Shown piece by piece: positions 22,166-63,780 of a stretch of 64,000 nt of DNA. The position numbers and the translations under genes are program-made. The notes beneath the pieces are model-generated. The model saw nothing but the letters and a program-made list of their open reading frames with translations. It did no database searches and had not been told where the DNA came from. How positions within the stretch are numbered: the first letter of the stretch is position 1; each line of letters begins with the position of its first letter. The stretch spans positions 5,120,168 through 5,184,167 of the forward strand of contig OZ020522.1 of NCBI GenBank assembly GCA_963971425.1, in the 5' to 3' direction. Source of the stretch: Bryoerythrophyllum caledonicum. Its lineage: Eukaryota; Streptophyta; Bryopsida; Pottiales; Pottiaceae.

Positions 22166-25100
22166 TTATTCCGCATGCCCTCTTTCACAATTGACTGCTG
22201 AACATGCTCTCCCTAACCAGACGGGATATATTTCGGGGTCAGAAGGACGGAGTAGGATCCATGATCTCACTCCGACATCTCGCCATGGATTCAAGGCGTC
22301 CTTCGGTCTCTCTTTCCTTGGGCCATAATAAAGTTCAGGTTCGTCATCTTCAGGTGTGACATCTCCACTGGTAATGAGGCACAATGGAGCTGGATCTGTG
22401 GCTCTCCAATCATGAATTGGCCAGAAGCCTTCTACCAAGACCGTAGGAGTGGGAGGAAGAGGTTTCTCTAGTTCTGCAAGTATTCCATTCCAGTACTCAA
22501 TATAAGGTGGAAAATCCTTACGAAAGCCCATACTTTCAAGCAACCCGCATTCCCAGAATTCTATATAACCTCGAATTCCACACTTGATGAACAACCTCTT
22601 ATCAAGGGCTTTGGAAACCTTCTCTCTTGCCTTCTCTGGATTGCCTGTGGAAGAAGGAACTTCATCGCCCCACAACCGCCTGAAAGGTATAGGATTTGGG
22701 AGCCCGGAAGGTAGCTTCGATTTTCCGTCAGCATCCTCCTTGCAAAGACGGATAGCAGGTTTGTCTCTGGGTAGCCAGTGCGCATGAACTTCAAGTTCCT
22801 TAAATCGCATGACGGGCCACCCTTCTTCATCTACGTAGAATTTAAAGAGGTGCATCTCTCCTAAGCCAACAAGTCTGTCAGCACCATCACGAATATAACC
22901 ATGGACGAAAGATTTGAAATCAACAACCTCTTGAACAAACTCGGGCATAAAACCCAAGTCCTGCGACTGCATGAAGGACATCATCAAATCCGCAACAATA
23001 TAAGTATTCTGGCTCTTCAAGGTCTTGGATAAGTGGCTAAAGTAAGCATCAATATCCTCATGCGTGTGCCCGACTAATAAGAAACCAACTTGGATTTCTT
23101 TGAACACCCTTCGATAAGTCAACATCGATAAGAACGCCATGAGAAACTGGTTCTTATTGTCCTTTGCAGAGTTGTCAAGCTGCAAATATAACTTTTTTGG
23201 AAGGGGGACGGGTACAGTCGAGTTATTCGTTATCGAAGGTAAGAGTTGAATACATCTGGACTTCCCTCTGAGCATAGCTTCAAAAAAAGAATTGGCCGGC
23301 TCATGGGGAAAAATTCTACCTGATTCACGAATGGGTGGTTCCTCGAGACGCCGAAGCAATCTCGCAAGGGAGGAGATAGTGTAATTAGAGTCTCCTGGCC
23401 ACAAGTCAGTGGAGTAGTGAGCATAGGCACCATCTCCATGATCGTGCGTGACCATACCGGTGACGTTCATTGGGAACTGACCCAAGGGTGATGTGAGTTT
23501 GGTAGAAACTTGCATACGAGGAATAGCTGTCTTGGCTGTATCCATTTTATCGTGGATAATACAAAGAATATCGCCCTTCTGCCGCTTCGACTCCTCTCTC
23601 CAGGTATGGTACACACGCCTACACGAAGCTTGGAGGTTGCAGTGGGTTTGTTTCTACTTCACGAACGAATTATATTTGGCGGAACCCTTAACTGATCTGT
23701 CGATGTACTGCAATAGCGTGTCACAGAGGGTGGACTTTGCAAATGAGCTCCTAACGGGTTTAATCGCAACATTGTTGAAGTGCTTCCTACTGATTCTACT
23801 AAGAGCGGATTGCGAAACCGCGGGCAACCCGCATTGTAGATTCGACCGCAAAAGAGTCAAAACATTGAGTGCATCAAGTAAGTGCCCAGTGAGAATTGAA
23901 CATAAATCAGATTGAGGATAACCACAGAATGGGAGGACTGTAAGATTATAGCATACCCTTGGCGATCGTAGGATCCTACCATGAACTAGATGTACAGAGC
24001 AAAGATAGAGGGTCTTTCACGACATTATCATAATCATGAGGTGCTTAAAGTACATGTGAATGCAGAAAAGTGGTTCATGTAGTGTACTATGTAGAGTAAT
24101 ACCTCTGTGGCGTCAGCCTGGATCTTCTTCCAACTATGTCCAGAGGGTAGAAACTTTAGAGTGTCCATCCGCCTTGGTACTGTCAACCTCATGTGATTGG
24201 GCATGTGATCAGCACTCTCATTGATGATAGCCGTAATCGTACCAAGTGCTTGCATGGTTCCAAGGCGGGGTCGTTTGACGTCTTTGTTCCCGTGCGTAGA
24301 GGAAACGATACCCTTCTTGTACTGGTCCATATATTTGTGAAACGTTGATTTCGGTATGCCATGGATTTTGTACCACGCTGTAGCGCAGATATCCTGACCT
24401 AGTAAAGTGACATACTTTCGTTTCCGATTGTTGCCCATATAGTGTAATTGTCCACCTACAGACCTTGCATAATCCCGGCATTCGTCAAAGTCCTTCAGCC
24501 AAAACTTCTGGCGAATGAAAAGGGTATCCTGGGGCCTGATTAAGCGCACGCATTCATCAGAACAAGATGATTGCGAACTCACTGCTTGAATTTCTTCCGG
24601 CATGTCTTCTTAGCGAATGCGTTGAGCTTCTCCTCAGTCCACTTTTTGCGACGAACAAACCGGTATGGTGCTTTTGGGCGGCCACCCAGGTGCGCATTCG
24701 CGTCCGGTGCGTCAAGCAGACGATTGAAATGGTCAAGCTTATCGCTAAGACTATGTCCTCTTTCGAATGCGCAGTCGGAAATGGGCCACCTCCGATGACT
24801 CATAATGTCACTAGGATCTCCGATGAAAACGTCCAATACTGTGACGCCAATGTTCCCCTCCCCCAAAGTACTATTTTCAAACGGCTCATCCGGACAGACG
24901 CAATTAATGCGACCAGAGGCCATAAGATCCCCATCACCGTTAAACTGCTTCACAACCTTCCCCACCCACTCTGCCTGAGGTACAAAAGGAGGAGTGTTTG
25001 TGGACCCAGAAGTTTCGCCTAAGTCCGAAGTCAGGACAAGGCTTGCTGTCTCCCAAAGAATTGTTCTACCAATCGATTCAGCCAAGACAGAGATGCCCTC

Positions 25101-25379
25101 CTACATTGGATGAATTAGTAGACTTCGCGCCCGTGCATGTATCTCAACAGGTCGAAGAAGAGTCAATTCCGCGAACGTGATATCAATGTCGACGCCAAGC
25201 CAACACCCAGTAGGAACAGCTTCAATGACAATGGCATGTCCAACAACGCCATGTCCAGGGTAGCAAAGTAAAACACTCATGCCCGGTTCATATCGGTTTC
25301 GCACGTCATTGGCATCAACATCGGGGTTAATGCTCGCAGAATCAGTAAACTCATCGTCCAGTCCGCAACTTGAAGACAT
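22166..25379 (-). pseudogene. DUF7869-type transposase-like gene of element 1
   Basis: The minus strand encodes a long protein in two main parts. The N-terminal part (from the ATG at 25379 to a GT donor just after 24103) has a small beta-rich segment (VLLCYPGHGVVGHA), a basic region, a CxxxF...CSDEC cysteine area and HGNKDVKRPR. The C-terminal part (about 23870-22166) has YLQLDNSAKDNKNQF and VGHTHEDIDAYF (near 23065), the hallmark blocks of the family labelled DUF7869, then a BAH-like tail ending at 22166. The family is found in mosses, protists and invertebrates. An RNase-H-fold DDE transposase role is my inference. A few breaks interrupt the frame, so it looks dead. It is divergent from the ParB-like gene at 29926. 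Confidence 0.65.
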
Positions 25380-25496
25380 CAAAGGCAATCGGAAAGAAAA
25401 GGATCCAATAAACCTTCGATCAGCCCTGGTCTTCGATCTCCTGATGAATAAAAAATCGTAAAAGAAAAATCAACAAATCAAGCCTGATGATACTAG

Positions 25497-25887
25497 ATCG
25501 TAAGATCCTACGATGAACCATCATCCCAAGCTCACCCCTGATTTCCAGGTTCTGTGATCACCCTAGAGTATCAACAAATCGGTCGTAAGATCCTACAATT
25601 GTTCGGTAACTCCTAAACGATCATAGGCGATAGTAAGATCCTACGATCATCCGAGATTATCTACAACATCCACATTCCTCGTTCGATGCCGAACCAATGA
25701 GATCGTAAGATCCTACGATCATTCCAGAACCCGAGTTCGATCCTCGATGATAGTAAGATCCTACGATCTTCCAGATTACTCGGATGCCCTCAAAGCCCGT
25801 TTTCATCTACCACGAAATAGATCGTAGGATCATACGATCTTAACATGACCCATGACAGATCATCAAGGATAGTACTATCCTACGATC
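25497..25887. repeat. Cluster of seven GATC palindromes upstream of the DUF7869-type gene
   Basis: Copies at 25497-25516, 25581-25600, 25629-25648, 25701-25720, 25749-25768, 25820-25839 and 25866-25887 are spaced 50-85 bp apart. The copy at 25701-25720 is GATCGTAAGATCCTACGATC, with three GATC words every 8 bp. The cluster sits immediately 5' of the minus-strand gene, in the position of its promoter. Confidence 0.9.
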
Positions 25888-26884
25888 ATTCGATATTATC
25901 ATACGACCACCGAAGATTGTACAATCATCATGACTGTACGGAAAGTACGTTTACAAACACAGTAATAGCTACTGAACTAGTTCATTTAAGCAATGGCAAA
26001 AGTCGATTCCACCACAAGTATGAGTAGTTTACAGAATATGATATAGACTAATTCAAAATAGCAAATACTTTACAAACCACCGCAGGATTCTCACGATTAG
26101 AATTAGTTTTGAATCTATGATTCTGACTCACTTACAACAGCATCAACTCTGAAAACCACGGCGGCACTTGCATTTTCAAAATATTTGAAAACCTTAATGC
26201 ATAGAAAGTGGAGGAAGGAGACAGTACCGTAGATTGTGATGGAACCGGAGAGAGATGGATCAATACTGGCAGCGGGGCAGCAATGAAGCGCTCGATCAAC
26301 TTGAGAAGCTCAGATCGACGTGATTGTGACGCTCACATTGACGTGAAGGTTAAGATGAGCTTACAGCTTATAGCTCGCTACCTAAACTTGACAGAACATA
26401 ACGAAGAGGTGTCGAAGTAGGTGAAGCCCAAGCTCGACTAAACACAAAGACGATACCGCATTTCTGACGCTCTAATACTCCAAGTTTCTTCAAAACACAA
26501 TGCTCTCAGTTCTTGGGCAAATACAACTCTCTCAGACTCTAACTCTGCTGGAAATGAACTCAAAATATTTGAACACTAAAAGCACAGCAACCTCTTCTTG
26601 ATCTAAAGAAAGCGGGAAGTTCATTTAGAACATGTTGAATCCTTGGCGGGGATAGAATCACAATCATTTTCAAGGACGTGGAGAGCTGTACGAGTGCCAC
26701 TTCGAATGTAATTATTTCCAAGACGGAAAATGACAACAACGGAGACAAGATAAAATATATTAGTGAAATTGTTCTTGAATTGTGGGAACGTCCAGTGATC
26801 ATGAAGAACACACGTGTTTCAGTAGTACTCATGAACTTACGAGAATTTGTCATGGTTACAATCATTAACCTGTTAGACTAGGTT
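25888..26884. other. Non-coding interior of element 1
   Basis: No gene or clear repeat is supported. Short open frames here have no recognisable domains. Confidence 0.4.
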
Positions 26885-27735
26885 AATAGTTCAGGGTTCT
26901 AGGTTCAGGGTTTAGAGTACAAGATAACAGACTCAAGCTCCCAGGTTTAGGGTTCTAGGTATAGGGTTTTAGGTTCGGGGTCACTATAAGAAACCCGTGT
27001 TTTTTGTGATGTCACCTAAAATCGTAAAACATTTACATTTTGAAAAGTGACATCTAGAAAAACATCAGAATTAACAGGATGTTGTAAAAAACATGGAGAT
27101 GTTAGTTGGGACACGTGGGCATGTTAGCTCCCAAACATGGGGATGTTAGCAAGGACACGCGTATATGTTGGCAAAGACGTTAACGTAAACATTGTCATGT
27201 TGACTGCAATTTTTGCCATGTTTTTGCATGTTTCGGTTGATCCAAATTTTAGGTGATGCTTTCATGGACATCATCCCTGTTTTTTTGACATTTTCTGCGT
27301 TTTTTGGAACATCACAAAAAACACGGGTTTCTTATAGTGGGTCTTAGCTTCAGTCTTTGGGGTTCAGGTTTCTAGGATTAGAGTTTCAGGTTTCGGATTT
27401 TTAGCCTCAGAGTTTGGGGTTCATGGTGGTTGGTTTGGGGTCCTAGGGTTCAGGGTCCTAGGGTTTGGGGTCCTAGGGTTTAGGGTCCTAGGGTTTGAGG
27501 TCCTAGGGTTTAGGGTCCTAGGGTTTAGGGTCCTAGGGTTTAGGGTCCTAGGATTTAGGGTCCTAGGGTTTGGGGTCCTAGGGTTTAGGGTCCTAGAATT
27601 TAGGGTCCTAGGGTTCAGGGTCCTAGGGTTTGGGGTCCTAGGGTTTAGGGTCCTAGGATTTGGGGTCTTAGAGTTTGGGGTCGTAGGGTTTAGGGTCCTA
27701 GGGTTTAGGGTTTAAGGTTCAGGTTTAGGGATTCT
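26885..27735. repeat. Degenerate telomere-like array, split by a MITE
   Basis: From about 27426 to 27730 a roughly 14-bp unit GGTCCTAGGGTTTA is repeated some 20 times. It contains the plant telomere word TTTAGGG. Looser TTCAGGGTTTAG/TTCTAGG units lie at 26890-26980 and 27345-27425, on either side of a CACTA MITE. This is an interstitial minisatellite and not a chromosome end, because genes and other elements lie on both sides. Confidence 0.85.
26982..27339. mobile_element. CACTA-type MITE, 358 bp
   Basis: The element starts CACTATAAGAAACCC and ends GGGTTTCTTATAGTG. The inverted repeats match for about 31 bp at each end. The flanking trinucleotide GGT is present on both sides (26979-26981 and 27340-27342), the 3-bp target duplication expected for CACTA/CMC elements. 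There is no coding capacity. It inserted into the telomere-like array. Confidence 0.95.
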
Positions 27736-27944
27736 TTGTTTAGGATATTGGACTAAAATTCAGGATATAGGATAATCCTTGAAACCCTTGTATAAATGAT
27801 TCGTTGAGCTTGGATAAAACATTCACATATTTTACACTAAACATACAATAAATGTACTAGAATATAGCAAGACATTCACCTTTGGATTGGAGATTCAACT
27901 AAAATCTTTCATTTGGGGGTCATTTCAATATCTAAAGCTTATCA

Positions 27945-29165
27945 TGCTTAAATAGAATAAAGAAATAGAATCAGAAAATAGAATAAAGAAATAGAATGAA
28001 AGATTGAATAGAAAGAAGTGGAATCCAAAAATAGAATAAGGAAATAGAATGCAAGATTGAATAGAATGAAGTGGAATCAATAAATAGAATAGAGAATAAG
28101 TCAAATGACAAATTGAATAGAAATAGGTGGAATCAAAAAATAGAAAGAATAAGTGTAATGGAAGATTGAATAGAAATATCTAGAATGAAAAAGAAAAATA
28201 AAGAAATAGATTGAAAGATTGAATAGAATGAAGTGGAATCAAAAAATAGAAAAAAGAAATAGAATGAAAGATTGAATAGAATGAAGTGGAATCAAAAAAT
28301 AGAATAAAGAAATAGAATGAAAGATTGAATAGAAATAGGTGGAATCAAAAAATAGAATAAAGAAATAGAATGAAAGATTGAATAGAATGAAGTGGAATCA
28401 AAAAATAGAATAAGGAAATAGAATGCAAGATTGAATAGAATGAAGTGGAATCAATAAATAGAATAAAGAATAAGTCAAATGAAAGATTGAATAGAAATAT
28501 CTAGAATGAAAAAGAAAAACAAAGAAATAGAATGAAAGATTGAATAGAAATAGGTGGAATCAAAAAATAGAAAGAATAAGTGTAATGGAAGATTGAATAG
28601 AAATATCTAGAATGAAAAAGAAAAATAAAGAAATAGAATGAAAGATTGAATAGAAATAGGTGGAATCAAAAAATAGAATAAAGAAGTAGAATGAAAGATT
28701 GAATAGAATGAAGTGGAATCAATAAATAGAATAAAGAAATAGAATGAAAGATTGAATAGAAATAGGTGGAATCAAAAAATAGAAAGAATAAGTGTAATGG
28801 AAGATTGAATAGAAATATCTAGAATGAAAAAGAAAAATTAAGAAATAGATTGAAAGATTGAATAGAATGAAGTGGAATCAAAAAATAGAAAAAAGAAATA
28901 GAATGAAAGATTGAATAGAAATATCTAGAATGAAAAAGAAAAATTAAGAAATAGATTGAAAGATTGAATAGAAAGAAGTGGAATCAAAAAATAGAATAAA
29001 GAAATAGAATGAAAGATTGAATAGAATGAAGTGGAATCAATAAATAGAATGAAGTGGAATAAAAAAATAGAATAAAGAATAAGTCAAATGAAAGATTGAA
29101 TAGAAATAGGTGGAATCAAAAAATAGAAAGAAGAAGTGTTATGAAAGATTGAATAGAATGAAGTG
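27945..29165. repeat. About 50-bp A-rich minisatellite
   Basis: Roughly 20 tandem units are built from AGAATAAAGAAATAGAATG, AAAGATTGAATAGAA and TGAAGTGGAATCAA blocks. Two variants alternate, one with AATAGGTGGAATC and one with ATATCTAGAATG, so higher-order units are present. It is non-coding. It lies between the divergent DUF7869-type and ParB-like genes. Confidence 0.95.
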
Positions 29166-29399
29166 GAATCCAAAAAATTGGTGTGTAGGGAACTAACCTC
29201 ATGCTTAAGACAATGTTAAGAGATTTAGAGCTTGTGTAGTGCAAGAATATCATACGAAGTGAAGTCTAAAGAACTTGTTATTTAATTCAATTTTCAGCTC
29301 CAAACTCTGAATTAAAGTAGAATTCTTGATTAGAGGTATTAGTCTTCACCGTATGGTAATGATGACTCGAAGCATCATTAGAGCTTGATGTAGACCGCA

Positions 29400-29925
29400 A
29401 CTTAGCCGTCGTGGAGGAGTTGTCCAACCATCAATGACAGTTTTCGTTGTCTCTCCCCCTCCCTCCTCCTCCCTCTTCCTTCTGGTTCTTGTTTTCGTCT
29501 CACTTTTGTTTTCATGTCAGTTTTCTTGTTTTGAGTCCGAATTTTGTTGTGATTTATTGTGATTACCGTGACTATATGCGCGTCTGTGAGTGTTGTGAGC
29601 GGTGGGAAAGTAGTGTGCGTGTGAGTGCGTTTCAACTGCAAATCGGTGCGATTGGCGGACACGACGTTACGAAAGAGTGCGGCGACTTGCAAGAAACAAT
29701 ACTTTGAGGTAGGAATTTTCTTCTTAGAAACTCTGATCAGTTGATATGTATTAGAAATTCTCTGTTTTTAGGGACTCTTTGTACAAGTGAGGATGTTCGT
29801 AAGGAGAATGAAGTTGTTCGGAGTTCTTCAACTGTCGATGTTTTTTAGACATTGAATAGGTGTTGTTGCTGTGACTCACGAGCTTCTAACAGGGTGTCTC
29901 ATCTAGTGTGTACCAATTCAGGAGG
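29400..29925 (+). promoter_or_regulatory. Probable core promoter and leader of the ParB-like gene
   Basis: A pyrimidine-rich tract (29448-29485, CCCCCTCCCTCCTCCTCCC) resembles plant Y-patch promoters. A possible leader intron runs from a GTAGG donor at about 29708 to CTTCTAACAG ending near 29891. The open frames across this segment on both strands lack domain features and are best read as untranslated DNA. Confidence 0.4.
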
Positions 29926-30014
29926 ATGACAGGCCTATCGGGCAATGCAAGCGACTGGAGTGACCCGTAAGTTTCTATCCTTTCAATGATGCTAAATTTT
30001 CCTTTTTCGCGTTC

Positions 30015-30640
30015 TGGTTTAGATGATTTGTAGTATGACATGAATGATTGTTAGATTCTGGTTTTCATGTTAGGTTTACAAGCTGCGTAGTATGTGATGA
30101 ATGATTGTCAGATTCAGGTGTTGGTGTTTGGTTTACAAGGTGCGTTGTATGTTATGAATGATTGTCTGAGTGAGGTTTTTATGTTAGGTTTACAAGGTGC
30201 GTTGAATGTTATGAATGATTGTTAGATTTAGGTTTCCATGTTCAGTTTTTAAGCTGCGTAGTATGTTATGAATGATTATTAGATTCAGGTGTTCGTGTTA
30301 GGTTTGCAAGGTGTGAATTATGTTATGAATGATTGTCAGATTGAGGTTTTCATGTTAGGTTTACAAGGTGCGTAGTATGTGCTGAATGTTTTCAGCTTTA
30401 GGATTCAGGTAAAGTTTGCTGGATCTGTACAATCTTTTGAATGATTTTCTATTAAGGCTTTCCATGTTCTGGTTTACAAGCTCTGTTGAATGGTTTACAA
30501 GGTGCATAGTATGTGTTGAATGTTTTCAGCTTTAGGATTCAGGTAAAGTTTGCTGGATGTGTACAATCTTTTGAATGATTATCTACTAAGCCTTTCCATG
30601 TTCTGCTTTACAAGCTCTGTTGAATGATGTGAATGGTATT
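30015..30640 (+). repeat. About 60-bp degenerate tandem repeat in intron 1
   Basis: About nine units of a 55-65-bp sequence with GAATGATTGTCAGATT, TTCATGTTAGGTTTACAAG and GTGCGTAGTATGTTAT blocks lie inside the first intron of the ParB-like gene. They are non-coding. Confidence 0.85.
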
Positions 30641-30888
30641 CTAGCTTTGGTACTCATACTCAGGTTTATAGGCTTTGTAGTATGTCATGAATGTCATAAC
30701 ACTCATCGAGTATTACTGAATCGTATGTTAACCCCTTGTAGTCTGATATGCAATTTAGGGTTATTGTGTATGGTATGCAAACTTTTCGCAATCGAATGTA
30801 GATCTATTGTACACTGTTTACACATAAAGTTATCATAAGTTGTACATTGGTGCTGAAGTGCACCTGAAGTTCATACGATCCTCGTAGA

Positions 30889-31376
30889 GATCGTAAGATC
30901 CTACTATCGTCATGAGGATGGTAGGATCTTACGATCCCTTTCAGGATCGTAAGATCTTACGATCTCTTTCAGGATCGTAAGATCTTTCGATACCCATGAG
31001 GATCGTAAGATCTTACGATCTCCATGAGGATCGTTAGATCCTACGATCCCTTTCAGGATTGTAAGATCATACGATTCTAGACAGCATCGTTAGATCTTAC
31101 TATCCCTTTCAGGATCGTAATATCTTATGATCCCGTTCAGGATCGTAAGATCTTATGGTCCCCTTGAGGGATCATATGATCTTTCGCAATCCCTCAGGTC
31201 TACTTGAACCAAAGATCCCCTCAAAGATAGTAAGATCCTATGATCCATTTCACAGAGTACTCTTGGTATCACAACTTCATCTATATCCATTGTAGAATGG
31301 GATCGTAAGATCTTACGATCCCCCAAAGGTTTGTATGAACTAACCGTGTCTTTTAAGATGGTAGGATCTTACGATC
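30889..31376. repeat. Cluster of about 14 GATC palindromes in intron 1
   Basis: Perfect GATCGTAAGATCTTACGATC copies are at 30945-30964, 31001-31020 and 31301-31320. Near copies are at 30889, 30917, 30973, 31029, 31057, 31085, 31113, 31141, 31171, 31226 and 31357. In the core, starts fall every 28 bp (30889, 30917, 30945, 30973, 31001, 31029, 31057, 31085, 31113, 31141), with spacers such as CCTTTCAG, so this is an ordered array. It ends just before exon 2. Confidence 0.93.
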
Positions 31377-32886
31377 TTTAGTTAGATGGTTTCCCGTGAT
31401 TTGAGAGGAAACCGTTGACACCTGAGTTTCTTATATGACTACTGAATTTATGCATTGTTTTGGTCAGGGAAAACATCATCGAACTCGAAGACGTGAACCC
31501 CGACTGGTGTCCTGTAAACCTCTATGATGCTGTTTCGTGTGGGCTGAGGAACATAGAATGTAATCTAGTTAGTGATCCTGAGCCCACCGCTTTTTTTATG
31601 GCCGACAAGGTTGTGGAATGGGGTCTTCATTGGACGCTTGACCGGAAGCAAAAAAACATTCTGATAGCGCCAGTGTTGGCTATTACAAATGCCGCAGCTC
31701 CTGGAGGTCCTTCATACAAATTATCAACAATGAATATGGAAGTACTAGAGTTACTGCACCTCACCGCCACCATTTTTGTAATTGTCATCTCCGAGTTTGT
31801 GGCGAGTTCGGGATGTTCCAGGGTATATGGCTTAGTCATTGACAAAGTAGGTTTGGTTCCTGCACTAAACGAATCGGTCAAGGACTGGGGATGTACTATA
31901 TCGAATTTTAATCCCGACGTTCGAAGGATTGTCCAAGGCTGGAAGGAGCTACGGGCGAATCGAGATTCGTATAATGGAGACCGACAGAAAGCGGCTCCGC
32001 CTACACCTCCTAAGAAGAAGCGGTTGTCTTCACTTCTTGTGGCGGAGGGGCCGCCAAAGAAGAAGTCGCAGACTCGGAAGAAGTCGGACCCCAAGGTGGA
32101 TAAACTCACACTTGCGAAGGCAGTGGGGATGACGAGCAAGACCGTTGCAGGAAAAACCGCAAAAGAGCTGCAGCTTGTGAGGACTCTATACGAAAGAGAG
32201 TTCTCGAAACTCCATATTTTTGGTAAGAAGCCAATGAAGGTGTCCCCACAAGACCCCGCTGATCTGGTAGTGGACATTGACCGCCTTCACCGAGCTCCAG
32301 CCGGTACTGTCGTTTATCGACCACTGGATAAGAAGCGAGTATTACAGCTCATTGACCAGAAGCGCACGATGCCATTTCAGGCATCACTGCAACATTTGTA
32401 CGTGATGCCAGTAAAGGGACATTATCCACTCCGGAAAGAAGATTTCAAGGACGTGCCGCGCGATGCATACGAGTTTTTCAAGGAGCAGCCAACACTGAAG
32501 GACATCGGCCCAAACACACACTATGTGGTTATAGGCGGGCAGCATTGCGTGGCTGCACACAGAGTCCTCATTGAGGAGGGAAGTCTCTCGGAAGAAGATG
32601 AGAGAGATGCCAAGAGCTTCATCATAACAGTTGTCTGGCAGGATCCCAAGGACTGGAACTTGATGCTATACTACTCAAGGGTCCTCAACCAAGATCTTGC
32701 TGGCGTTAGATTAGAGGGCAACTATCTAACCCTACTGGGTCTAGCGCGTAAGAGCTGGGTTTTAGCCGATAGTCGAGCTCCATCCAAGAATGGATTGGCA
32801 CACTCCAATGAGTTCAAGGTGAGTCACTGAAACATTATCCATCAAGTTAATGTTTGACTTACCGATTCATGTACAAGGTATAGACT

Positions 32887-34340: not shown

Positions 34341-34394
34341 AATTTTTACTGTGATCGCCACGTCACATACGGACGTGTCACGCCACCGTGGCAC

Positions 34395-40165: not shown

Positions 40166-40246
40166 ATTGTACCATTACAAACAAAAAGGATATTTAAAAC
40201 CATATAAACACGCAATTAAGCAATTATGCACTTAGCCAAGTGCACT

Positions 40247-52778: not shown

Positions 52779-53420
52779 ATAGTGTGCCTTTATGAGAGTA
52801 TACTAGTTGTGTATGGTAATTGATATATAGTGTACGTGTAAGAGTAGTATATTCTAAGGGTGATGTAAGACGTTATGTCATTAATCCTATAGAGTAAAGG
52901 TAATTTTACTATTGGTGCTAAGTCCAGATGTAGAAGAATCTATATTTAATTTCCACCATTGTATGCATTATATACTACGTAGAATATCTTTTAATCAAGT
53001 GCCAACCCTTGCATAAACTATGTTTTTCTGTGATTACGCCGGTTTGTATACTACAATCCTTCAAATCTATCTTTGAAATATTGTGAAACTATATTAAATA
53101 CAGATTTATCTAGTATTAACGAGGGGCCACCAAAAATTAGTTGAAAATGCCAAAAAACCGCTTCCAATATTAACAACCATGATTGTACGTAATATTGTTG
53201 TAGAAGCTCAATTTTTTTTCTCTGGAAATCATTTTTTTTCATTGTTTTTTTTTTTTTTTGCAATTTTGCCACTTTTGTTCGCAATGGCCGCCGTTGTACC
53301 CAAGTGCACTTTTATATGGCCAAGTGCATAAATTGCTTAATTGCGTGTTTATAATGTTTAGAGCAAAAGTATTGTTCACAAAATTGATTTGCTACGTCCT
53401 AAACCTTTAAATACTCTTAG

Positions 53421-54097
53421 TCAATAGTAACGTTGGTGAAGGGCTCCTTCGGTCCTCCTCAGCCTACCAGGTGCTTGTGCCTTTTCGCTCGCGACTTGGA
53501 CGTGGGTTCCGTCGGAGTCATCATCTGAACTTGATGTGTTAGTATCATAGCTAGGTGTGTCGTCCATCACAGTCATGAACTTGCCCAATCCACCTTCCGG
53601 ATACTTACGCCATCCCATTGGAATTATTCCATTTTCAGGGCGAGGAATTTTTACCTTCCCCGGCATCGACTTCAAAGTGGACCAATCCACTATCTTGCCC
53701 AACTTCACCTCCGCATGAACACCCCGCGCAATGAAGAGATTTACTTCGTTGCGTTTGACGAATGGGACGTCATACAACACCTGGTAAACTTCGATGCATG
53801 GATTTTTAACGCCTCGTCGATGCAATGTTTCAAGTTTGCCTTGTGGAAGCGCCGGTGATAGTTGTGTCGTGCCTCTGGGAAAGCCTTGTCGATGTGGCAC
53901 CACTCGATGTAGTTCGCGCAATCATCAAAACTCCATGGCTCCACTACGTCCTCCCAACCTCGAAAAGCCAACTTCTCGGGATTTCGAAAAACCTGCAACC
54001 GCTTCCGATGGGCGTTCCCCGCTCTTGCACGGGTCTTGTCACGCTCCTCCTTGGCCAATTGTCCGGATGAAGACATGGTGTGCACGTGTGAATGCAA
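53421..54097 (-). pseudogene. Truncated paralogue of the RING-family gene (N-terminal part)
   Basis: The minus strand encodes KEERDKTRARAGNAHRKRL, NPEKLAFRGWEDVVEPWSFD and CHIDKAFPEARHNYHRRFHK, about 75% identical to the start of the gene at 57758. A frameshift between about 53920 and 53740 moves the continuation (CIEVYQVLYDVPFVKRNEVN) into another frame. The copy stops at 53421, before the coiled coil and RING finger. It lies directly beside the right end of element 2. Confidence 0.8.
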
Positions 54098-54214
54098 AAT
54101 TCTGGCGTGGATGGATGAATGAGACCTCGCACAACGCCCACATCCAGCTCAATGAAGAGATGGTGGATAGGAGTATGCGAGGTGGGGACAAATGAGGTCC
54201 CCCTCCATTAAAAT

Positions 54215-54305
54215 AAAAATCCGGTGTGGGCGGAGACGTCGCCGCCCCTGCCTCGGTAGGGGCGGAGACGTCCCCGCCCCACCAGGGCAGGGCGGGGACG
54301 TTTGC
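54215..54305. repeat. GC-rich GACGTC array upstream of the truncated paralogue
   Basis: GGGGCGGAGACGTCCCCGCC-type units lie 120 bp 5' of the minus-strand frame, the same relation as at 38545-38690 and 57930-58075. This supports a promoter-associated role. Confidence 0.8.
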
Positions 54306-54429
54306 TTGAAAATTGGGGGGGGGTTTGTCCCCACAAAACTTTCCAAGGAGGCGTTTGAGGCCGCTCTTGCTTGGCCGAGGCACTCCTCATCTCCATGAGG
54401 CGGGTGCACAATTAAATATGGGGTGATTT

Positions 54430-54590
54430 ATTTTTGGTTCCGACAAGATCCTAATGCACTTAAAATAACATGCAGATTATGTCTCTCCCTAGTTCTAGGG
54501 AGGAAGGCGAAATGGAAAGTACAACTGTTGTACTTTGACGGCATGCTCTCTAATAAGGAACACCTTTATTAGCTCCCTATTAGTTTTGGA
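54430..54590. repeat. Second copy of the GGTTCCGACAAG block
   Basis: It matches 38771-38924, including TTATTTTTGGTTCCGACAAG and CACCTTTATTAGCTCCCTA. Confidence 0.75.
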
Positions 54591-54599
54591 GCAAACATA

Positions 54600-55230
54600 A
54601 GAGTGTAGAAAATTATTTCCTTCCAAATTAAAAAAAAAATTCCTTGTCTTTAGTGGAAAATAATGCTTCAACTCAAATCAAAGATTTTCACATATTGCCA
54701 AAAATATAACGGGCAAGGTACCAAAAACAAAAACTTCTTACCACATAAAACTTAGAGATTTTAACTTTTTATACTTTTGATTTTTTCCACAACTATATGT
54801 GGTGTAGACCTTCATATTGACCATAAATATACATCAATCTAAAACATATCAAGTATCTAAAAACTAAAACGTTACTTGCCCATTTTTTAGCTTCCACTAC
54901 TAGCATAGTTGACTTGAATAAGGTACACCCTTTTTCTACCTCTAACAATTGGTGTATAAGGAACTAACATCATCCTAAACTACCATTAGTAATGGATTTA
55001 GGCCTTATCTAGTGCAAAAATTTGATACCAAGCAGTGAATAGCATGGGAGCTATGCAAGCCTTTCAATCCGTGTGGTTAAAATTTATGAAATTTTGTGGG
55101 GACATTAACAAAGAAGTATTTATTGTGATCCTACGGTTAGATGTAGAAATAAAAAGGTTTTGTCTCCATTCTTAGGCATTATACTATAGCCTCGCAGTTT
55201 TGAAGTGTTTTTGGTGCAAAAATGTTTAGA
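54600..55230 (+). repeat. Diverged copy of the TAACCCC-ended repeat with embedded satellite fragment
   Basis: The interior matches 48050-48640 and 49300-49900 (CTTCATATTGACCAT, CTTTTTCTACCTCTA, GAACTAACATCAT). At about 55025-55060 a piece of the 165-bp satellite (TGAATAGCATGGGAGCTATG) replaces part of it. That suggests recombination or template switching. Confidence 0.75.
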
Positions 55231-55472
55231 GGTTTAAAACTTGGTCCACACCATTTTTTTTTAATACAAACGCACAAATCCTTATGAGGCTTAAGCACAT
55301 CCATAATCACACGGATTAACACCACTATTATAAAGTAGAATGTAGACAATACTATTCATATTTTTTTTTAGTATCCATAATGTAATACGAAAATGGGAAA
55401 ATACATTAAACGCTAAAAGATGAAGCATTGTAAGAAAATTGTCTCTTGGCACCGCAAAAATAAAAAATACAC
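55231..55472. other. Non-coding AT-rich spacer
   Basis: Between the diverged repeat and the end of the RING gene. Probably 3' flank of the latter. Confidence 0.35.
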
Positions 55473-57758
55473 CTAGTCAATATTCATCAGGCTATTAGTA
55501 GTGCCACTCGCCCCTGCCTCGTTGTCGTGTGCCCCTACGTGCATAGGGAGGTCTTCATCTGAGCCCAATACAAGTCTACGAGACGCCGATCGTGTTCTCC
55601 TCGCTGGTCCATCTTCATCCAACACGGCCCTTAGGATTTGGGATTGCATGAGCTGGTCGAGCGCTTGCCGTGTCCCTGGACTGTGCACATCGAGCAAGAA
55701 GTCGATTCCGTCATTTCGGAAAATTTCTTTCTTCTCTGATTCCGATAATTGTCTTAGTTCTTGCGGGTCCGATTGGTCAACGTCGTGAGAAATGCGATCC
55801 CCGTTGTCGTCTGTGATGCGAACTCCGTCAACGGCCCACAACCATTGCTGTGGATGAGGTCCAAAACGAAATTGCTCCCCATTCTCATCCCAATGGCCAT
55901 TAAAGCATTGGTAGAAGAAATTTTGTTTTCCTTGACCGTATTTGTCCTTTAATGGGATCAAATTCTTGCACACCCGGACAATCTGCTCCGGGTCCCTTTC
56001 CCAAACCCACTCGTTTGAGAGGTGCATCTTATCCAACGAGTGCATCTTCAGTTTCCAGCTCCACACCAAATCTTTTCCTCACATATGTGATTGATCATGA
56101 GCGTTCGTCATATTGAACTCCCAATGCGGGGGCATGTATGGAACTAATCCAAAAAGTTCGTACAATCGCTCGTGAAAAGGGGCCTTGCACAATGAGCACC
56201 GCCGGCGTACAACCATCAAGCTAATCAAACAAAATGGATGGTACAAGTGCTCACAAGTGCCTAGATGCATCCCACCTTCTGGCCCAAATGGGTTTAGACA
56301 AATTGAGCAAGTCGTACCGTCGGATACGAAGCTCGAAGGTTGTGGCCACAATAACATGGGTTTGTCCCGATGATCGAGGGTAGATGAAACCTCCTTTTTG
56401 AAATCCCATTTGTAACGGGACCAATCGATGGTTGTTTGCCCACCAGCGGTTTTCACCATCGCCATTTCATCCATCTTGAAAAGATCATCTACGAGGGCCC
56501 ACGATGTCAAACCAAACACCCTCTCCTGGTTGTTTTCGGTATAGTTGTTGTCGATTTTTTGGAATTCCGCCACCAATTGTCGGGACCGATCGACCGTGAA
56601 GACGCATGCCAACTTCCATTGATAGTAATGTTCTACCAACACATCCAAGCGACTTTGTAGTCTTGAATTCTCTTCAAGCGCTTTAGCGAGCTCTTTGTCA
56701 CCGTCACCCCCCGCACCCTCTTCTTTGTCGACCATAGCTTTGTCCACGTTGGTAGGGGCCTCATCAAACGACAATGAATCGTCTTGGGTTGACACGTGTA
56801 CAAGCACTTCTTCCTCCCGTCGTGGATTCCGATCTTCTGTGGTCATTGTACTAGTTTGAAGGGCAAGTCGGAGCTCCTTCATATCACGTCGTTGCTGGTC
56901 AATAACAATGTTTTTATCATTGACTTCAACTCTCAACTTGCGAACCTCATCGCGCAATGACAATAGTTCTGTTGTCTTCCCTTCCAATTGGTTCAGCTAG
57001 GTTTGGATAGTGTTGGCAAAAATAGCACCAGTAGAGGCTTCTAACGTTCGATCAACAACCGCGGGGGATTGTACCTGAGCCCCAATTTCAATAACGGTAT
57101 TGTTAACGACTACGTTAACCGTTTGTTCCGCCCTCCTTCGTTTGGTGCGCGCTTCTGTCCTTTGGCTCCTTGTGATTGGAACGTGGGATCCGTTAGAGTC
57201 TGTATCCGTGTTTGAGGGATCGGTCTCGTACGTGTCGACCGGTTCAGTCTTCGCCATCGATTTGCCCAATCCACCTTCTAGATACCTCCGTGTCCCCATT
57301 GGAATCAATCCATTCGCCGGAGAAGGAACTCTTATGCTATCTCCCATGGCTTTCAAGGTGGACCAATCCACCCTCTTGCCCAACTTTACCTCCGCATGGA
57401 CACCTCGCACAAGGAAGAGATTTACTTCGTTGCGTTTGATATAAGGGATGTCGTACAAGACCTGGTATACTTCAATGCACCGATTTTTGAACGCCTCATC
57501 GGTGCACTTCCATAAACTTGCCTTGTGAAAGCGTCGGTGATAATTGTGTCGCTCCTCCGGGAAAGCCTTGTCGATATGGCACCACTCGATGAAGTTTGCG
57601 CAATCCTCGAAACTCCATGGCTCCGGAACTTCTTCCCAACCTTTAAATGCCAATTTAACAGGATTCCAAAGCACATGCAACCTCTTCTGCTGCTTGTTTT
57701 CCGATCGTAGTCCACTCTTGTCTCGTTCTTCTTTATTCATTTTTACCGGCGTGGCCAT
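55473..57758 (-). pseudogene. RING-finger/coiled-coil cargo gene of the hAT element
   Basis: One minus-strand frame of about 760 codons starts at the ATG at 57758 and is interrupted by a TAG at about 56997 and a TGA at about 56079. It otherwise stays in the same frame to 55473. Regions in order are an N-terminal conserved domain (GWEEVPEPWSFEDCANFIEW), a basic linker (TKRRRAEQ), a coiled coil (about 56980-56880), a RING-like finger CSICLNPF...GTCEHLYHPFC...CSLCKAPF (about 56310-56175), a C-terminal segment rich in Trp, and an Arg/Ser-rich tail. RING fingers usually confer ubiquitin-ligase activity. Its role in this element is unknown. It is divergent from the kinase gene across a shared promoter array. 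Confidence 0.7.
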
Positions 57759-57884
57759 GGGTGGGGAAAATCTGAATAATATATGTGATGCAAATGGATG
57801 AAGTCCTCACACGACGCCCACAACCAACTCAATTAAAAGGTGGATGAAGAGGGAGTATGTGAGGCGGGGACAATTAGGGGTGTG

Positions 57885-58110
57885 CACGGTATTATATAGC
57901 CGATAGATGAAGCACTGGTCTAGGGTCCCCAGGTAGGGGCGGGGACGTCTCCGCCCCTTACCGGGCAGGGGCGGAGACGTCCCCGCCTCCTACTGGATAG
58001 GGGCGGGGACGTCTCCGCCCCTTACCGGGCAGGGGTGGAGACGTCCCCGCCCTGTCCAGGTAGAGCGGGGACGTCTTCGCAAAAGGAACCCTACACCATA
58101 TAAATAGGGG
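57885..58110. promoter_or_regulatory. Bidirectional promoter with GACGTC array between two TATA boxes
   Basis: A GC-rich array of five GGGGCGGGGACGTCTCCGCC-like units (57930-58075) lies between TATTATATAG at about 57889 (TATA for the minus RING gene when read in reverse) and CATATAAATAGG at about 58098 (TATA for the plus kinase gene). The TATA boxes are about 130 and 195 bp from the respective start codons. ACGT cores of this type are bZIP-like sites in plants. Use as transposase (BED) sites is an alternative. Confidence 0.65.
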
Positions 58111-58295
58111 ACATTTTGTCCTTATTCTCTACAAAGTCCACTCTCTAGGCGTCACGTGTCACTTCGCTTTGCGGCCTGAAAGTGAGTTTGGTGGGTGATC
58201 GGGCTTGGCCCATTTATTGTACCCAGTCTCTTTGCGGTTTTTTTTAAAACCATCAACTTGGAATTTCGACCACGATAGGGAGTTGACAATCATAC

Positions 58296-59876
58296 ATGGC
58301 GGGAGAAGGAAGTAGGTCGATGGAGAAGCGCCTAGTATTTATGGACTTGGATGATGTTGATGAGACGGTTCTTCCGTCCACCAACACGGAGTTGACTTCG
58401 GGATCATTGAATCCGTCGTCATCGTGCGGGAAGAGGCGGAAGAAGTCACCAAATCCGGATATGCCCCCGCACGAATACATGGTTGAATGTAGAGGGATTG
58501 CCGTCGAGTTTTACAAGCGTCGGACGACAGGGGCGTTGACGAGGAGCTATTTGACCCACAACGAAGAGGGATACCACAAGTTGTTGGTTGACATGCGACA
58601 CGAATTAATGTCAAACCTTGATAAATCTGAGAAATTTAATAATTTCTCAGATTATTGGTTGCATTCGGAGTGGTTGGACACACAAGTGACCGCACTGACC
58701 ACCAATATCGTTGCGAACTGGTGTTACGTCACATGGAAGAAGGAGGATGAGAGCACCTGGAACTTGGAGGAGCGCGCACTAGTGGCGAAGATGAGGATGA
58801 TCCAGGGCTTCGTTCAACAATACTCTTCTTCCCATAAGAAGAAACTAGCTCCTTGGAAAGTGACTATTGAGGAACAAATTTTGGCTCACTGCGTTGGTGG
58901 AACTTTCAAGTGGCTTGAAAGTTGCGCTAAAGTGATTCCAATGCCAGGGCAGAGCGCGGTCGGTGGCTATGGGGCTGTACGGAAGGTGATGATAACCAAA
59001 TTGGAAAACATTCCAAGTAGGATTTACTTCGCCTGAAAGACTCTGACCAACACCAACGAGAGGGAGAAGCGCCGAAACATCATCAACGAGGCTAGAGGGT
59101 GTCCGGTTGTACATCCAGGGATCGTTAGACTTGCGTACATCCACCCGAAAACTATGGAAGGGTACACGCTCTGGTGGAATGGGGGATCTCTGGCTTCTTT
59201 TTGGTCCAAGTTTGACTCGAAAGTGGACGAAGCATTGCCATTTGAACGGATTGAGATGCATCCGAATATCGGGTTGTCAATCCAAGAGCTTCGGTGGGTA
59301 AAAACTTACCGCCAAAATCCAGTGAACCTCGCGCTATCATTGCTTGTCATTGTGGGAAAATGCCACGATGCAAATTATATACACAATGACATCTCTCCAT
59401 CGAATGTTTTGCTCCACTTTGATGAGTGGAAACCCGATACGGTGTACATCGGAATTTGCGATTGGGGGCTTTCTAGTCGGGTTGTAGAGAACGAGCCATC
59501 AAGGTTGGTTTTCAATTCAAGGAGGAGCTTCAACAAGAAAGAGAGCGGCGACGGTTTGTGGCACCAGAACTGTTCTATAATTTTGGGCCGCAGGACTCCA
59601 CCAATTCGCTTGAAGTCATGCAACGGTCACACCTCTACTCCAAGGCAGCAGATGCATTTGCGGTGGGTTGGATTTGTGAAAAAATTTGGAAAGAAGATTG
59701 GGACACTTCGTATTTCACCAGCAAAAACACGGAGCAATATATAAACCTAAAGCTAAAACTTACAGCGTTGCAAAAACAATTGCTCGAAGAACGGTCTTCT
59801 GTACTAGATGTTTTAGACACATTAATGAAACCCCCCCACAAGTGGACTATGCCTCTATGTTGTTACCGACAATAGT
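58296..59876 (+). pseudogene. Protein-kinase-like cargo gene of the hAT element
   Basis: From the ATG at 58296 the N-terminal 200 residues form a helical domain of unknown type. A kinase domain follows: GQSAVGGYGAVRKV (Gly loop), FA-x-KTL (putative VAIK Lys), YIHNDISPSNVLLHFD (catalytic loop, HRD changed to HND), ICDWGLSS (DFG changed to DWG), RFVAPELFYN (APE) and KAADAFAVGWICEKIW. One TGA at 59034 sits exactly where Trp or Arg would precede the KTL. A frameshift near 59500 moves the C-lobe into another frame. The gene is therefore broken twice. HND and DWG variants occur in some active plant-type kinases, so the ancestor could have been active. Stop at about 59874. Confidence 0.75.
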
Positions 59877-60284
59877 TTTTTGTTAATTAGCTGCATTAGT
59901 TTCGCATGTGGTGGTTAAATAGGCAATACGGCATCTTCGTAGAAGAATATGTGTAATTGGCAATTGCCATATGTTATATTTTAATCAAAATTGGATACGT
60001 CCAAATCTTAAATTCTAAATCCGAGATTTGCATTTGTTCAAGCACAAATAACAATTGATACACTATTGATACACTAAATGTGCACAAGTGAAAGAAATAA
60101 ATTTATTATTTCTACAAAAATTGATACATAGTGTAGTAAATGGCATTTAGTGTCCGGTTATCTCACTACACTAAGTGCCTCATTTGCAATTGGTGTATGG
60201 GTTCACATTTAGTGTATACTACAGTAAACATAAATTTTAGTTTACCAACATAGTGTCAATAGTTAAACACTATTAACTAACTCA
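59877..60284. other. Non-coding AT-rich 3' flank of the kinase gene
   Basis: Contains repeated TGATACA/TTTAGTGT words around 60050-60260 and no gene. Confidence 0.4.
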
Positions 60285-60345
60285 TGAAGGGGCGGAGACG
60301 TCCCCGCCCCACACGGGCAGGGGCGGGGACGTCTCCGCCCCACCG
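60285..60345. repeat. GC-rich GACGTC array, right terminal
   Basis: GGGGCGGAGACGTCCCCGCC and one inverted neighbour lie about 210 bp inside the right end, mirroring the array at 34395-34505. Confidence 0.85.
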
Positions 60346-60439
60346 CCCTCTTGCCATTAGTCCCCGATCCTACTCAAACATGACCCTCTCCTACGTGGCA
60401 GCTATGTGGTGCCAACATGGCTGCCACGTCGCATGTTTT

Positions 60440-60562
60440 TTACCTAGTGGGTAAGTCAACCCTCAGTTGACTTACCCGGACGGGCGAGAGCTCTACCGGA
60501 CGGGCGAATAGGACGGATGGGCGTACCGGACGTCCGTCTAGTATGACAACGCTGTATGGGAA
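60440..60562. repeat. Right end of the giant hAT: subterminal motifs, TIR, target duplication
   Basis: Four CCGGACGGGCG-type motifs (60475-60535) precede TATGACAACGCTG (60542-60554). TATGGGAA (60555-60562) repeats the left flank exactly. A 9-bp inverted word GTCAACCCTCAGTTGAC sits at about 60452-60468. Confidence 0.9.
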
Positions 60563-60801
60563 TGACTTCAATTCGGCTGAAGCACAATGCTTCCGAGCAC
60601 CTTTTGGGAATGAGATGCCGTTCCAGACAGTAATATCGGCAGCAGATTTTGAGGATGCTCCCAAGCAATGGGCCCAACATTCATATGCCAATTTCAATAT
60701 CGACGCGGTTAGCAAGTTGCTTGGCACATTAGGGGCTCCAAATAATCTTCTTGTCAACATCGGTGGGGGTCCTTCGATTACCTGGATTGGCCTGGTAAGA
60801 T

Positions 60802-60821
60802 GGCCGTAGGATCCTACGATC
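60802..60821. repeat. GATC palindrome in an intron after the insertion
   Basis: GGCCGTAGGATCCTACGATC begins 8 bp after a GT donor. The palindrome series resumes here, immediately outside the hAT insertion. Confidence 0.85.
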
Positions 60822-61654
60822 TCTTTACCTCATCCCTCAGTTTGTTCAAATTCTCTTTCCACGCTATCTTTGCATCGTATGAATCTGTTTCCTGTTATCT
60901 AATACACCTACTACTCTCTGTTGTAGACTAAAGGAGCACAAGTCATCGAAGTCGTCTTCTCCAGGGATGAAGTGACGAGAGCCGATGGGACAACGAAGGA
61001 TATCTGGGAAAGTGCTCAGACGCTGGCAATAGCGGTACCTGCCATGGCAGCCTTGAGTGTGAGCGAGAGGAAGAAAAAGAAGATCGCAAGAGGCAAGAAG
61101 AAGGTCATACCGGTATCCAGCTCTGAGAGTGACTCCTCCAGCGACTCGGATGAGGCACCCTCCGAGAAGGCGGAGGACGTGGAGGCGGAGGACATCAAAG
61201 AGGAGGATCCGCCTTTGGACGACAGGCGGTCGGGCAGTTCCAAGACTCATCGAAGATTGCAGTTGGATAACCAGGAGCAGATCAACTTGACTCCTCCCTC
61301 TTCTATACAAACTGGTGCCCATGAGGCGACCATTGTAAGATACACACGCTTTTTTTTATCTCTGTCAACGGACAAACTGTTCTAGGACAATTGTATATAA
61401 CAATAACCATATGAACTGATCAGCAATGCACTGTTGTTAATTTTCTCTTTGCATATTCGTTATATTCATCATCATATCCCCACTCCATACAGGGAACTGT
61501 GGAAGTACATGATTGGCATCTGCGTACTTCATCTTCTGAGCCGCCGGTATGAATGACATTGCTCCGCTTGTTGTTTATAGAACTTGGAATATATGTATCG
61601 ATGGATCCATCTTACTTGATATAGTCATCAGTTACTACTCGAAGACTGCTTTAG

Positions 61655-61674
61655 GATCGTAAGATCCTACTATC
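61655..61674. repeat. GATC palindrome in a later intron
   Basis: GATCGTAAGATCCTACTATC, intronic. Confidence 0.85.
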
Positions 61675-62733
61675 CCTGCTCGTCTTTCAATGTAGAGAAA
61701 TAATTTTACCAGGTTCTGATCATTGCAGTTATGCATAGATGCTTTGGTGTACAAAGCACTTTCACCTACACCCGCTTTCAGCCATCTTGATGTTCAGTTT
61801 TTCATTAGTAGTTCCTGACTGGGACAACAACTTGACTGACCTTATTTCATTGCCGCAGCTTTTCCAAATTTCGCATGACGATCATGTGCCGTCTACTTCA
61901 GCAGCGGCGGAGCATGTCTACGGCCATGGAGATTCTCTTAAGCATGATATCGACCATGTCAATGCCAGCACAATTTTTGAAGAAGAGGATAGCAGCCTTC
62001 ATGCTCTAGTTAACGACTTGCCCGATGAGTGCCATGAGGACCTGAGTTGTCGAGGAGGTGAACTTCTGGAGGTGAGTTCTGTTCCAGATCAGGAAAGGAC
62101 AAGAAGAGAAGAGGAGGCATCGTTGCTCGGAGAGGAAGAGTTACTTGCTCCGATCACCAGGATGACTGTCACGAATGTTCCACCTTTAAAGCCGAGAAGA
62201 TCGGACGTGCTTCATCCCCCGTCGTCTGGACCTACACCGATGGAGTTAGAACCATCGTCTCAGCCTTCCTCTAGCCAGGACATGGAGACTACGACGGATT
62301 ATGAGCAGCACTCTACTGCGAATACACTTGCTACGTTACAAGACATTGATTTGACTGTTTCTCCCCCAGTAAATAAAGCGCTGTTCGATAGGGAGCTTAT
62401 CATAGGCATATTCGAGGAGGCTAGTTAGTCACTACAGGCCTTCAGCCCTCCTAGGAACATTTTGAATACACCTATTGTTAAGGACTACTTGGATGACCCT
62501 TTGAATTTCAGTCAAGAAATTCAGCCAACAACCTTTAGGATCGTCCCAAGACCACATGTTGAGGCTGATGCTGCTGAAAAGGGTCCTCCATCCGCACAAC
62601 ATACCGATGCAGGACCCTCTGCAGAAGGTATGAGCTATTAAATTCTACCATGTTGTTGTTTTCTGTGTATCTTTTATGTTCTATGTTCACACTATTATCC
62701 TCAGGGGAATTCAGGATCGGCCATCCTTACGAC

Positions 62734-62833
62734 CATCGTAGGATCTTACGATCGCTTTGGGTAGTGGTCTTTTTCGTTCCTATTGGGATGGTAGGATCCT
62801 ACGATTCTAATGGGATGGTAGGATCCTACTATC
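62734..62833. repeat. Three GATC palindromes in one intron
   Basis: Copies at 62734-62753, 62787-62806 and 62814-62833 lie between the exon ending near 62628 and the exon starting near 62934. The last two are 27 bp apart, close to the 28-bp period of intron 1. Confidence 0.9.
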
Positions 62834-63780
62834 CTCCAGCACTTTTGTCTCAAATGGTGGAAATGTATAAGTATTCTAAATGGCTTTTCGGTCGTGTATT
62901 CTTCACTAATTACCTCTTTTTTTTGGGCAGTTGAGATGTCGGGGACTGCTCAACGTCGTGAAAAGGTTCCATTATCGGCGGCACATAAGGGCTCTGGTTC
63001 CTCTAGAGAAGGTATGATTCTAGACAATTCTACTGCTTATTATTAGTTTTCTGAATTGGAGACTCATGCTTGCAACGTTTGTTTTCTGCAGGAAAACTCA
63101 GTGCACCCGCCATTAAATCAGCCCCTAGATCAGCAAAGGTAAGGCAACCTCAGTACACTGTTGTGCTGGACTTGAATGGCTTTCTGATTCACAGATCATA
63201 CGATAAGGGGCGTAAAACTGTCGCTAGACCTGAGTGTGCAAATTTTCTGCAGGTGCTGACAAATAAGGCTACTGTCGTGGTATGGAGTTGCGCCATGAGG
63301 AAAAATGTCGATAGCATGTTACAGGTGGCTTGGGATAGTTCTACTGTAAAGCTAGATGACCTAACAGTTATGTCACAATCTGATATTACAGAGTCGAGCT
63401 TTCCGAGAGCGGGGAACAACGTTGAGAAGAAGTATATGCTCAAGGACCTCAGAAACGTCAGGAAATATGTTGACCACGTAGACCTCAGTCTGACATTGCT
63501 CATTGACGACAACCCGGAGAAGAACCTCATCAACGATGAGTTCAGTGCGATTCATCCTCAAACGTGGATAGGTGACCTGAAGGACAAGTTCCTCATGAAC
63601 ACTATGCTTCCATGGCTCGAGAATATGTTTTCCTCAAATCTCTCTGTGGCCGAATATGTCCGTAACCATCCCCTTCCTGGATGTCCGGTTCCTGGAGAAT
63701 TTAGGTCCGTTGCGTTGGCTCAGAACATCGTAATTGGGTGTTCCCGAAAATGGAATTCCAAAGTCGGGGCATTTCAATGA

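Follow-up and report, generated by a model that had tools for sequence, protein, structure and literature searches.

We analyzed a 64,000-nucleotide stretch of the Bryoerythrophyllum caledonicum genome (assembly GCA_963971425.1, contig OZ020522.1, positions 5,120,168 to 5,184,167 of the forward strand; hereafter the window, position 1 being its first letter). Two large units, which we call element 1 and element 2, are nested in it: element 2 lies inside a hAT-type insertion, which itself lies inside element 1. The same divergent two-gene layout occurs in both, with a DUF7869-type gene on one strand and a long second gene on the other. A preliminary description of this locus had named the second genes ParB-like, and its range reached 63780 because the right part of element 1 resumes beyond the insertion.

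Results

Homology of the two DUF7869-type genes

In a Pfam profile search, the core open reading frame (ORF) of the element 1 gene, 22166-23653 (-), matched PF25273 with an E-value of 4.3e-43 and 147.6 bits, the cut-off being 26. The (+) gene of element 2 was linked to this gene by phmmer among 1,220 ORF pieces (E=3.8e-4, and 9.6e-5 in the reversed search). The similarity is collinear: the score of an N-terminal block was reached in none of 1,000 shuffles, and those of three further blocks, which follow in the same order, in 9, 1 and 13 of 2,000 shuffles. As a control for the block with one such shuffle, two wrong frames gave 1231/2000 and 124/2000. The element 2 gene lacks about 230 amino acids that in element 1 separate the second block from the third; they comprise most of the DUF7869 domain and both of its motifs, QLDN and GHTHED(I/V)D. 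PF25273 matched none of the element 2 pieces 50107-51636, 51987-52775, 51663-51770 and 51774-51983, and when the window was searched for GHTHED, allowing up to three mismatches, the copy of element 1 was the only one detected. Judged by these comparisons, the (+) gene of element 2 is best described as DUF7869-type by descent with most of the domain lost and, since that part is missing, element 2 is non-autonomous as it stands.

The second genes and the insertion in element 1

The second gene of element 1 starts at 31439 (+), about 6 kb from the DUF7869 gene and head-to-head with it. Its frame holds seven in-frame stops over 2.7 kb, versus 26-52 in the other five frames, and is interrupted by an in-frame GT-AG intron (32819-32998) and possibly by a second one of 68 bp (34074-34141). 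In element 2, the (-) gene is a single frame of 1,268 codons (44851 to 41048) that contains seven stops, five of them TGA and two TAG, versus 33-75 stops in other frames. Recoding of these stops was considered and is not favored, because they are of two kinds and nonsense decay suffices to explain them.

The 8-bp word TATGGGAA occurs as a perfect duplication at 34207-34214 and 60555-60562, with inverted repeats (11/13) just inside. Across the empty site, a single reading frame stays open and continues through the GT-AG intron 60795-60926; it differs from the upstream frame of the second gene, and joining the two needs the intron 34074-34141 or a frameshift. Because of the target duplication, the inverted repeats and the open frame at the empty site, 34215-60554 was taken as one hAT-type insertion or a nest of them. 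It contains an ORF for a DUF659 transposase at 36668-38260 (-) (PF04937, E=1.2e-35), a 164-bp satellite and the whole of element 2. We take DUF659 to be a marker of hAT transposases; the 8-bp duplication, the short inverted repeats and the hAT-type transposase together identify the insertion as hAT-type. Beyond it, in the right part of element 1, the second gene continues with 3' exons, up to 60794 and from 60927, and is accompanied by further ORFs, among them one for a NIF/CTD-type HAD phosphatase that is probably cargo of the element.

Element 2 is bounded by terminal inverted repeats of about 43 bp, placed just outside both its genes; their alignment scored 80, compared with a maximum of 36 in 1,000 shuffles. 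For element 1, the minimal bounds run from the first palindrome site (see below) to the hAT-type insertion; its left end was not located, its right end falls beyond the window, and only a 14-nt inverted pair was found in the parts searched for ends, the right half not being among them.

A GATC-centered palindrome in element 1

Allowing up to three mismatches, the palindrome TCGTARGATCYTACGA has 34 sites in the window, of which 7 are perfect and 17 have one mismatch; five Markov sequences yielded 0-1. Every site lies in one or the other half of element 1 (21137-32952 and 60804-63955), the sites forming nine clusters, and a search of element 2 for palindromes of this kind found none. The ten intervals that we assigned as coding cover 47% of element 1 and contain no site (chance about 0.003 at cluster level). 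The site at 23966 lies in the stop-free stretch 23657-24016, the 5' part of which was treated as an intron of the DUF7869 gene; if it is coding, the count becomes 1/34. Ten sites belong to a tandem array that directly precedes the (+) gene of element 1. Palindromes are also present in the two GT-AG introns between in-frame exons of the second gene (two in 32819-32998, one in 60795-60926), the possible intron 34074-34141 is free of them, and the remaining sites are in spacers or gaps between ORFs. With this distribution, the palindrome marks the two sides of the insertion as belonging to a single element, and it is a candidate binding site. The coordinates of all these features are collected in Table 1.

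Table 1. Features of the two nested elements and of the insertion that separates the halves of element 1.
Feature	Position	Strand	Basis or remark
Element 1, left part	21137..34206		range of palindrome TCGTARGATCYTACGA; insertion boundary from target duplication
Element 1 DUF7869 gene region	21926..25469	-	open frames; four-block collinear homology with element 2
Stop-free pieces of element 1 DUF7869 gene	25104-25469, 24582-25100, 24037-24609, 23657-24016, 22169-23653, 21926-22165	-	open frames
DUF7869 core ORF with QLDN (residue 158) and GHTHEDID (residue 195)	22166..23653	-	PF25273 match; motifs
Palindrome array, 10.5 copies of a 28-bp unit	30889..31183		Tandem Repeats Finder; palindrome scan
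Element 1 second gene, 5' part, broken by insertion	31439..34206	+	stop count per frame; splice sites read from sequence
Putative ParB-like domain of element 1 (motif GQHCVAA)	32207..32734	+	motif only; fails ParB profile test
Left 8-bp target duplication of hAT-type insertion	34207..34214		identical to 60555-60562
26.3-kb hAT-type insertion (possibly a nest) within element 1 second gene	34215..60554		inverted repeats 11/13; 8-bp duplication
Element 2, 13.2-kb unit	40197..53359		terminal inverted repeats 40197-40238 / 53317-53359
Element 2 second gene, single 1,268-codon frame	41048..44851	-	7 in-frame stops
Putative ParB-like domain of element 2 (motif GQHIVVA)	43199..43774	-	motif only; fails ParB profile test; one block like element 1
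Repeat-rich spacer between element 2 divergent genes	44852..50106		353-bp and about 1.24-kb repeats; 200-N gap 46345-46544
Element 2 DUF7869-type gene, most of core missing	50107..52775	+	homology blocks; motifs absent; no PF25273 match
Stretches of element 2 DUF7869-type gene	50107-51636, 51642-51989 (with stops), 51987-52775	+	parts of the gene above
Element 1, right part	60555..64000	+	open frame across empty site and intron; palindromes 60804-63955
NIF/CTD-type HAD phosphatase ORF	63055..63777	+	PF03031 E=3.5e-16; PDB CTDNEP1 7e-4, Tim50 1.3e-3

Profile tests and mutual similarity of the second-gene proteins

A ParB profile was built from 48 ParB sequences, canonical to very divergent, of bacterial genomes and phage P1. 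In hhalign, the proteins of elements 1 and 2 scored 11.7 and 9.5 against it, the best of 100 shuffles of each scoring 19.2 and 21.5, and both scores were also below those of at least 12 of the 91 chunks of window ORFs. In the positive control, 11 of 11 held-out ParBs were recovered with scores of 35-131, phage P1 ParB among them. In a by-eye reading, the motif GQHxVxA stands where ParB box II would, and hhalign placed GGQH of element 1 opposite that box, without significance. Among 70,522 amino acids of six-frame window pieces, GQHxVxA occurs only in the two second-gene proteins, as a motif chosen after the fact; the looser box II pattern G-x-[RH]-x3-A matches 44 of the 48 ParB rows, yet it has 28 occurrences in the same pieces. 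Single-sequence AlphaFold2 models of the putative ParB-like proteins reached mean pLDDT values of 33.0 and 33.3, too poor for a fold search. The only Pfam match of the second genes was to an irrelevant disordered-region model (E 0.09-0.39), and their best PHROG and PDB E-values were 0.27-0.69, with unrelated names. Viral, phage and prokaryotic collections yielded no relatives, most of these scans starting from six exact peptide patterns that reach close relatives only; PF25273 had no match in one bacterial genome or in the 14 control genomes, a search that is uninformative since it hit nowhere.

The ParB identity is not supported by sequence: no credible match came from Pfam, NCBIfam, PHROGs or PDB, and our own profile failed with working controls. 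A methyltransferase domain, read by eye downstream of the ParB-like block in both second genes, was rejected as unproven, although decay or divergence could hide one.

The two proteins are nevertheless alike in a block of 58-69 amino acids before GQHxVxA (block 1), the score of which was reached in 5-6 of 5,000 shuffles and by none of the 675 other window chunks, the block having been picked after seeing the alignment. On balance, we consider it somewhat likelier that the second genes are related to each other than that they are not.

The locus as first described held a DUF7869-type (-) and a ParB-like (+) gene back to back in element 1, and a ParB-like (-) and a DUF7869-type (+) gene in an element 2 at 40203-53353. 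Its layout is retained here, by the PF25273 match and the head-to-head (+) frame in element 1, and by the divergent genes, the homology of the DUF7869-type gene and the terminal repeats, now at 40197-53359, in element 2. Most of the DUF7869 core of element 2 is missing, and the ParB label, a motif reading with neither a credible family match nor a credible PDB match and with a failed calibrated profile test for both proteins, is unproven for both second genes. Strong divergence within each pair of homologues holds for the DUF7869-type genes with their four blocks; the second genes are not convincingly similar as a whole and resemble each other in one block only.

Neighboring repeats and ORFs

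A non-coding repeat family, roughly 60-91% similar, occupies 44834-45609 and 47765-49863 in the spacer of element 2, and 54632-55161 and 170-817 outside it. The 164-bp satellite (38917-40167; 7.6 copies, 98% matches) stops about 30 bp before the left end of element 2, and a fragment of it was found at 55017-55059 (86% over 43 nt). A partial inverted copy of the end region of the hAT-type insertion lies at 8509-9680 (99% over 971 nt, 95% over 211 nt), and an inverted-repeat end resembling that of the insertion is seen near 9668. Within 53421-58080, 53574-54078 and 57255-57760 are diverged copies (74-78% identical) of one gene block, 3.68 kb apart, accompanied by GACGTC-centered palindromic repeats; two ORFs lie beside the block, one of RING type (56082-56996) and one for part of a protein kinase (59037-59741), both with scores under the curated cut-offs. 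By eye, LINE-like ORFs were read in the window, as were minus-strand ORFs of another probable mobile element at 10396-13637, of which ORF 11176-11949, the sole one scanned, had no Pfam match.

Discussion

Taken together, these results point, with somewhat better than even probability, towards elements 1 and 2 being ancient, strongly diverged members of one giant DNA transposon family, with the DUF7869 gene as its transposase. The DUF7869 protein would most likely have an RNase H fold and perform metal-dependent cut-and-paste transposition on terminal inverted repeats, while the divergent second gene would most likely encode an element-borne DNA-binding accessory protein. This protein may be related, after much divergence, to the ParB-like (/methyltransferase) accessory proteins of other algal transposons; the latter have been proposed to bind and mark the DNA of their own element (PMC12477816). 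In element 1, a plausible target of such a protein is the GATC-centered palindrome of the spacers and several introns. Element 2, with most of its DUF7869 core lost, could move only with transposase from another copy, and element 1 was disrupted by the hAT-type insertion in which element 2 is presently located. Along the same lines, PMC12477816 describes giant elements as often carrying a pseudogenised transposase and nested insertions, and as presumably moved in trans.

The association of the two genes had initially been viewed as old and selected. Its age is supported, as far as alignments can tell, by the DUF7869-type genes, which are collinear yet highly diverged. Selection does not follow from it: if elements 1 and 2 are relatives, both may reflect one ancestral linkage.

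Several results weigh against a single transposon family with a shared pair of genes. DUF7869 found no relative in PDB (best E-value 0.76), and we therefore infer its role as a transposase; in flanks read by eye, element 2 shows no perfect target-site duplication; and the comparison of the elements covers the copies within the window. For either second gene, searched as pieces and as read-through, PF02195 was unmatched and Pfam gave no ParB at E<=10; nor did they have an NCBIfam, meaningful PHROG or PDB relative, and neither protein had a methyltransferase profile match or motif ([DNS]PP[YFWH], FxGxG). The whole-domain similarity of the second genes is marginal: its score was reached in 38 of 1,000 shuffles and, under four scoring settings, in 10, 55, 79 and 81 of 2,000, and under one of the four the score of element 2 was also reached by 3 of 120 other window chunks (from a set of 123, after removal of 3 belonging to the element 1 ORF itself). 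A second block was not significant, with 1551 and 2877 of 5,000 shuffles reaching its score.

It is conceivable, though with clearly less than an even chance, that only the DUF7869 genes are related, and that the second genes share no ancestry, being accessory or captured genes, neither of them ParB-like, which came to stand divergently by chance. The missing significant match to the ParB profile, the marginal pairwise similarity and the second block would all be expected in that case. It is opposed by the rarity of block 1 among shuffles, by the GQHxVxA motif common to both proteins in the same order, and by the identical divergent position of the second genes in the two elements. A very improbable explanation, already disfavored, is that the region consists of host-gene fragments and unrelated repeats rather than of coherent elements. 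The many stops and nested repeats, and the fact that no second copy of either element was found among the window repeat matches listed, could be taken that way, but the terminal repeats of element 2, the target duplication at an empty site with an open frame and the element-specific palindrome speak against it.

The statement in the preliminary description that no eukaryotic element defined by this pair had been described was too strong. The 21.5-kb transposon Sola1-1_Ec32 of Ectocarpus, as presented in PMC12477816, encodes a 1104-aa ParB-like and DNA methyltransferase protein opposite its transposase, and so this kind of arrangement is already known. Like the elements studied here, with the DUF7869-type gene taken as the transposase, it is a giant DNA transposon with a large accessory protein on the strand opposite the transposase, for which a ParB-like DNA-binding domain has been proposed. 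The accounts differ in that a methyltransferase domain is reported for Sola1-1_Ec32, whereas the second genes of the window have no confirmed ParB domain and no detectable methyltransferase domain; the transposases also go by different names, Sola1 there and DUF7869 here. Another explanation would be that the second genes are true fusions of a ParB fold and a DNA methyltransferase of the Sola1-1 type, with DUF7869 replacing or being equal to the Sola1 transposase. A comparable length (1,268 codons versus 1104 aa), the strand opposite the transposase gene and the giant size of the element argue for it; we nevertheless regard it as unlikely, given that [DNS]PP[YFWH] and FxGxG are absent from both proteins and that neither matches a methyltransferase or ParB profile.

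An even bolder and very improbable alternative is that element 1 holds a partition-like or self-marking module, in which a divergent ParB-fold protein recognizes the palindrome TCGTARGATCYTACGA. The protein would load at TCGTARGATCYTACGA sites and then spread over the DNA of the element or modify it, and DUF7869 together with a ParB-type protein would be the hallmark of a lineage of giant transposons that possess a centromere-like system on plasmid logic. The palindrome array beside the putative ParB-like gene of element 1 can be likened, by analogy only, to the par locus of phage P1, with parS beside parB; element 1 differs in that no ParA was seen, its ParB is putative and the site has another sequence. 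By eye, the order of motif-like features in the second genes resembles that of the bacterial ParB-CTPase fold; against the 48-sequence profile of that fold, however, both proteins score within the shuffled range.

Returning to the transposon family proposed above, element-borne ParB-like proteins, likewise proposed for elements 1 and 2, have been reported from green and red algal transposons, by Iyer, Abhiman and Aravind 2011 and, in the red alga Bostrychia, by Petroll et al. 2025, both as cited in PMC12477816; the comparison is one of descriptions. ParB-fold proteins also occur on prokaryotic mobile elements as orphan ParBs, and in phages as fusions with N6_N4 methyltransferases, and sulfiredoxin is given as the commonest eukaryotic member of the fold (PMC12704722). 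Fungal Starships and the fish Teratorn are giant eukaryotic elements with accessory genes too, but they use tyrosine recombinase or piggyBac-type enzymes and carry other accessory genes (for Teratorn, PMC6431247). Our search of the open-licence literature returned nothing on DUF7869, on ParB with Chara braunii or on the exact pair of DUF7869 and a ParB-like gene. Within the literature searched, what is new is therefore the DUF7869 partner, the copy with a deleted core and the palindrome.

DUF7869 is a domain of unknown function; were the pair borne out by whole genomes, the domain would be firmly placed as the transposase of giant elements. A ParB-type accessory gene would then be tied to a transposase class beyond the published Sola1, provided that DUF7869 is not Sola1 itself, and such a wider association would argue that the transposon benefits from this gene. 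The palindrome across the spacers and introns of element 1 offers a ready DNA target for binding tests with the second-gene protein.

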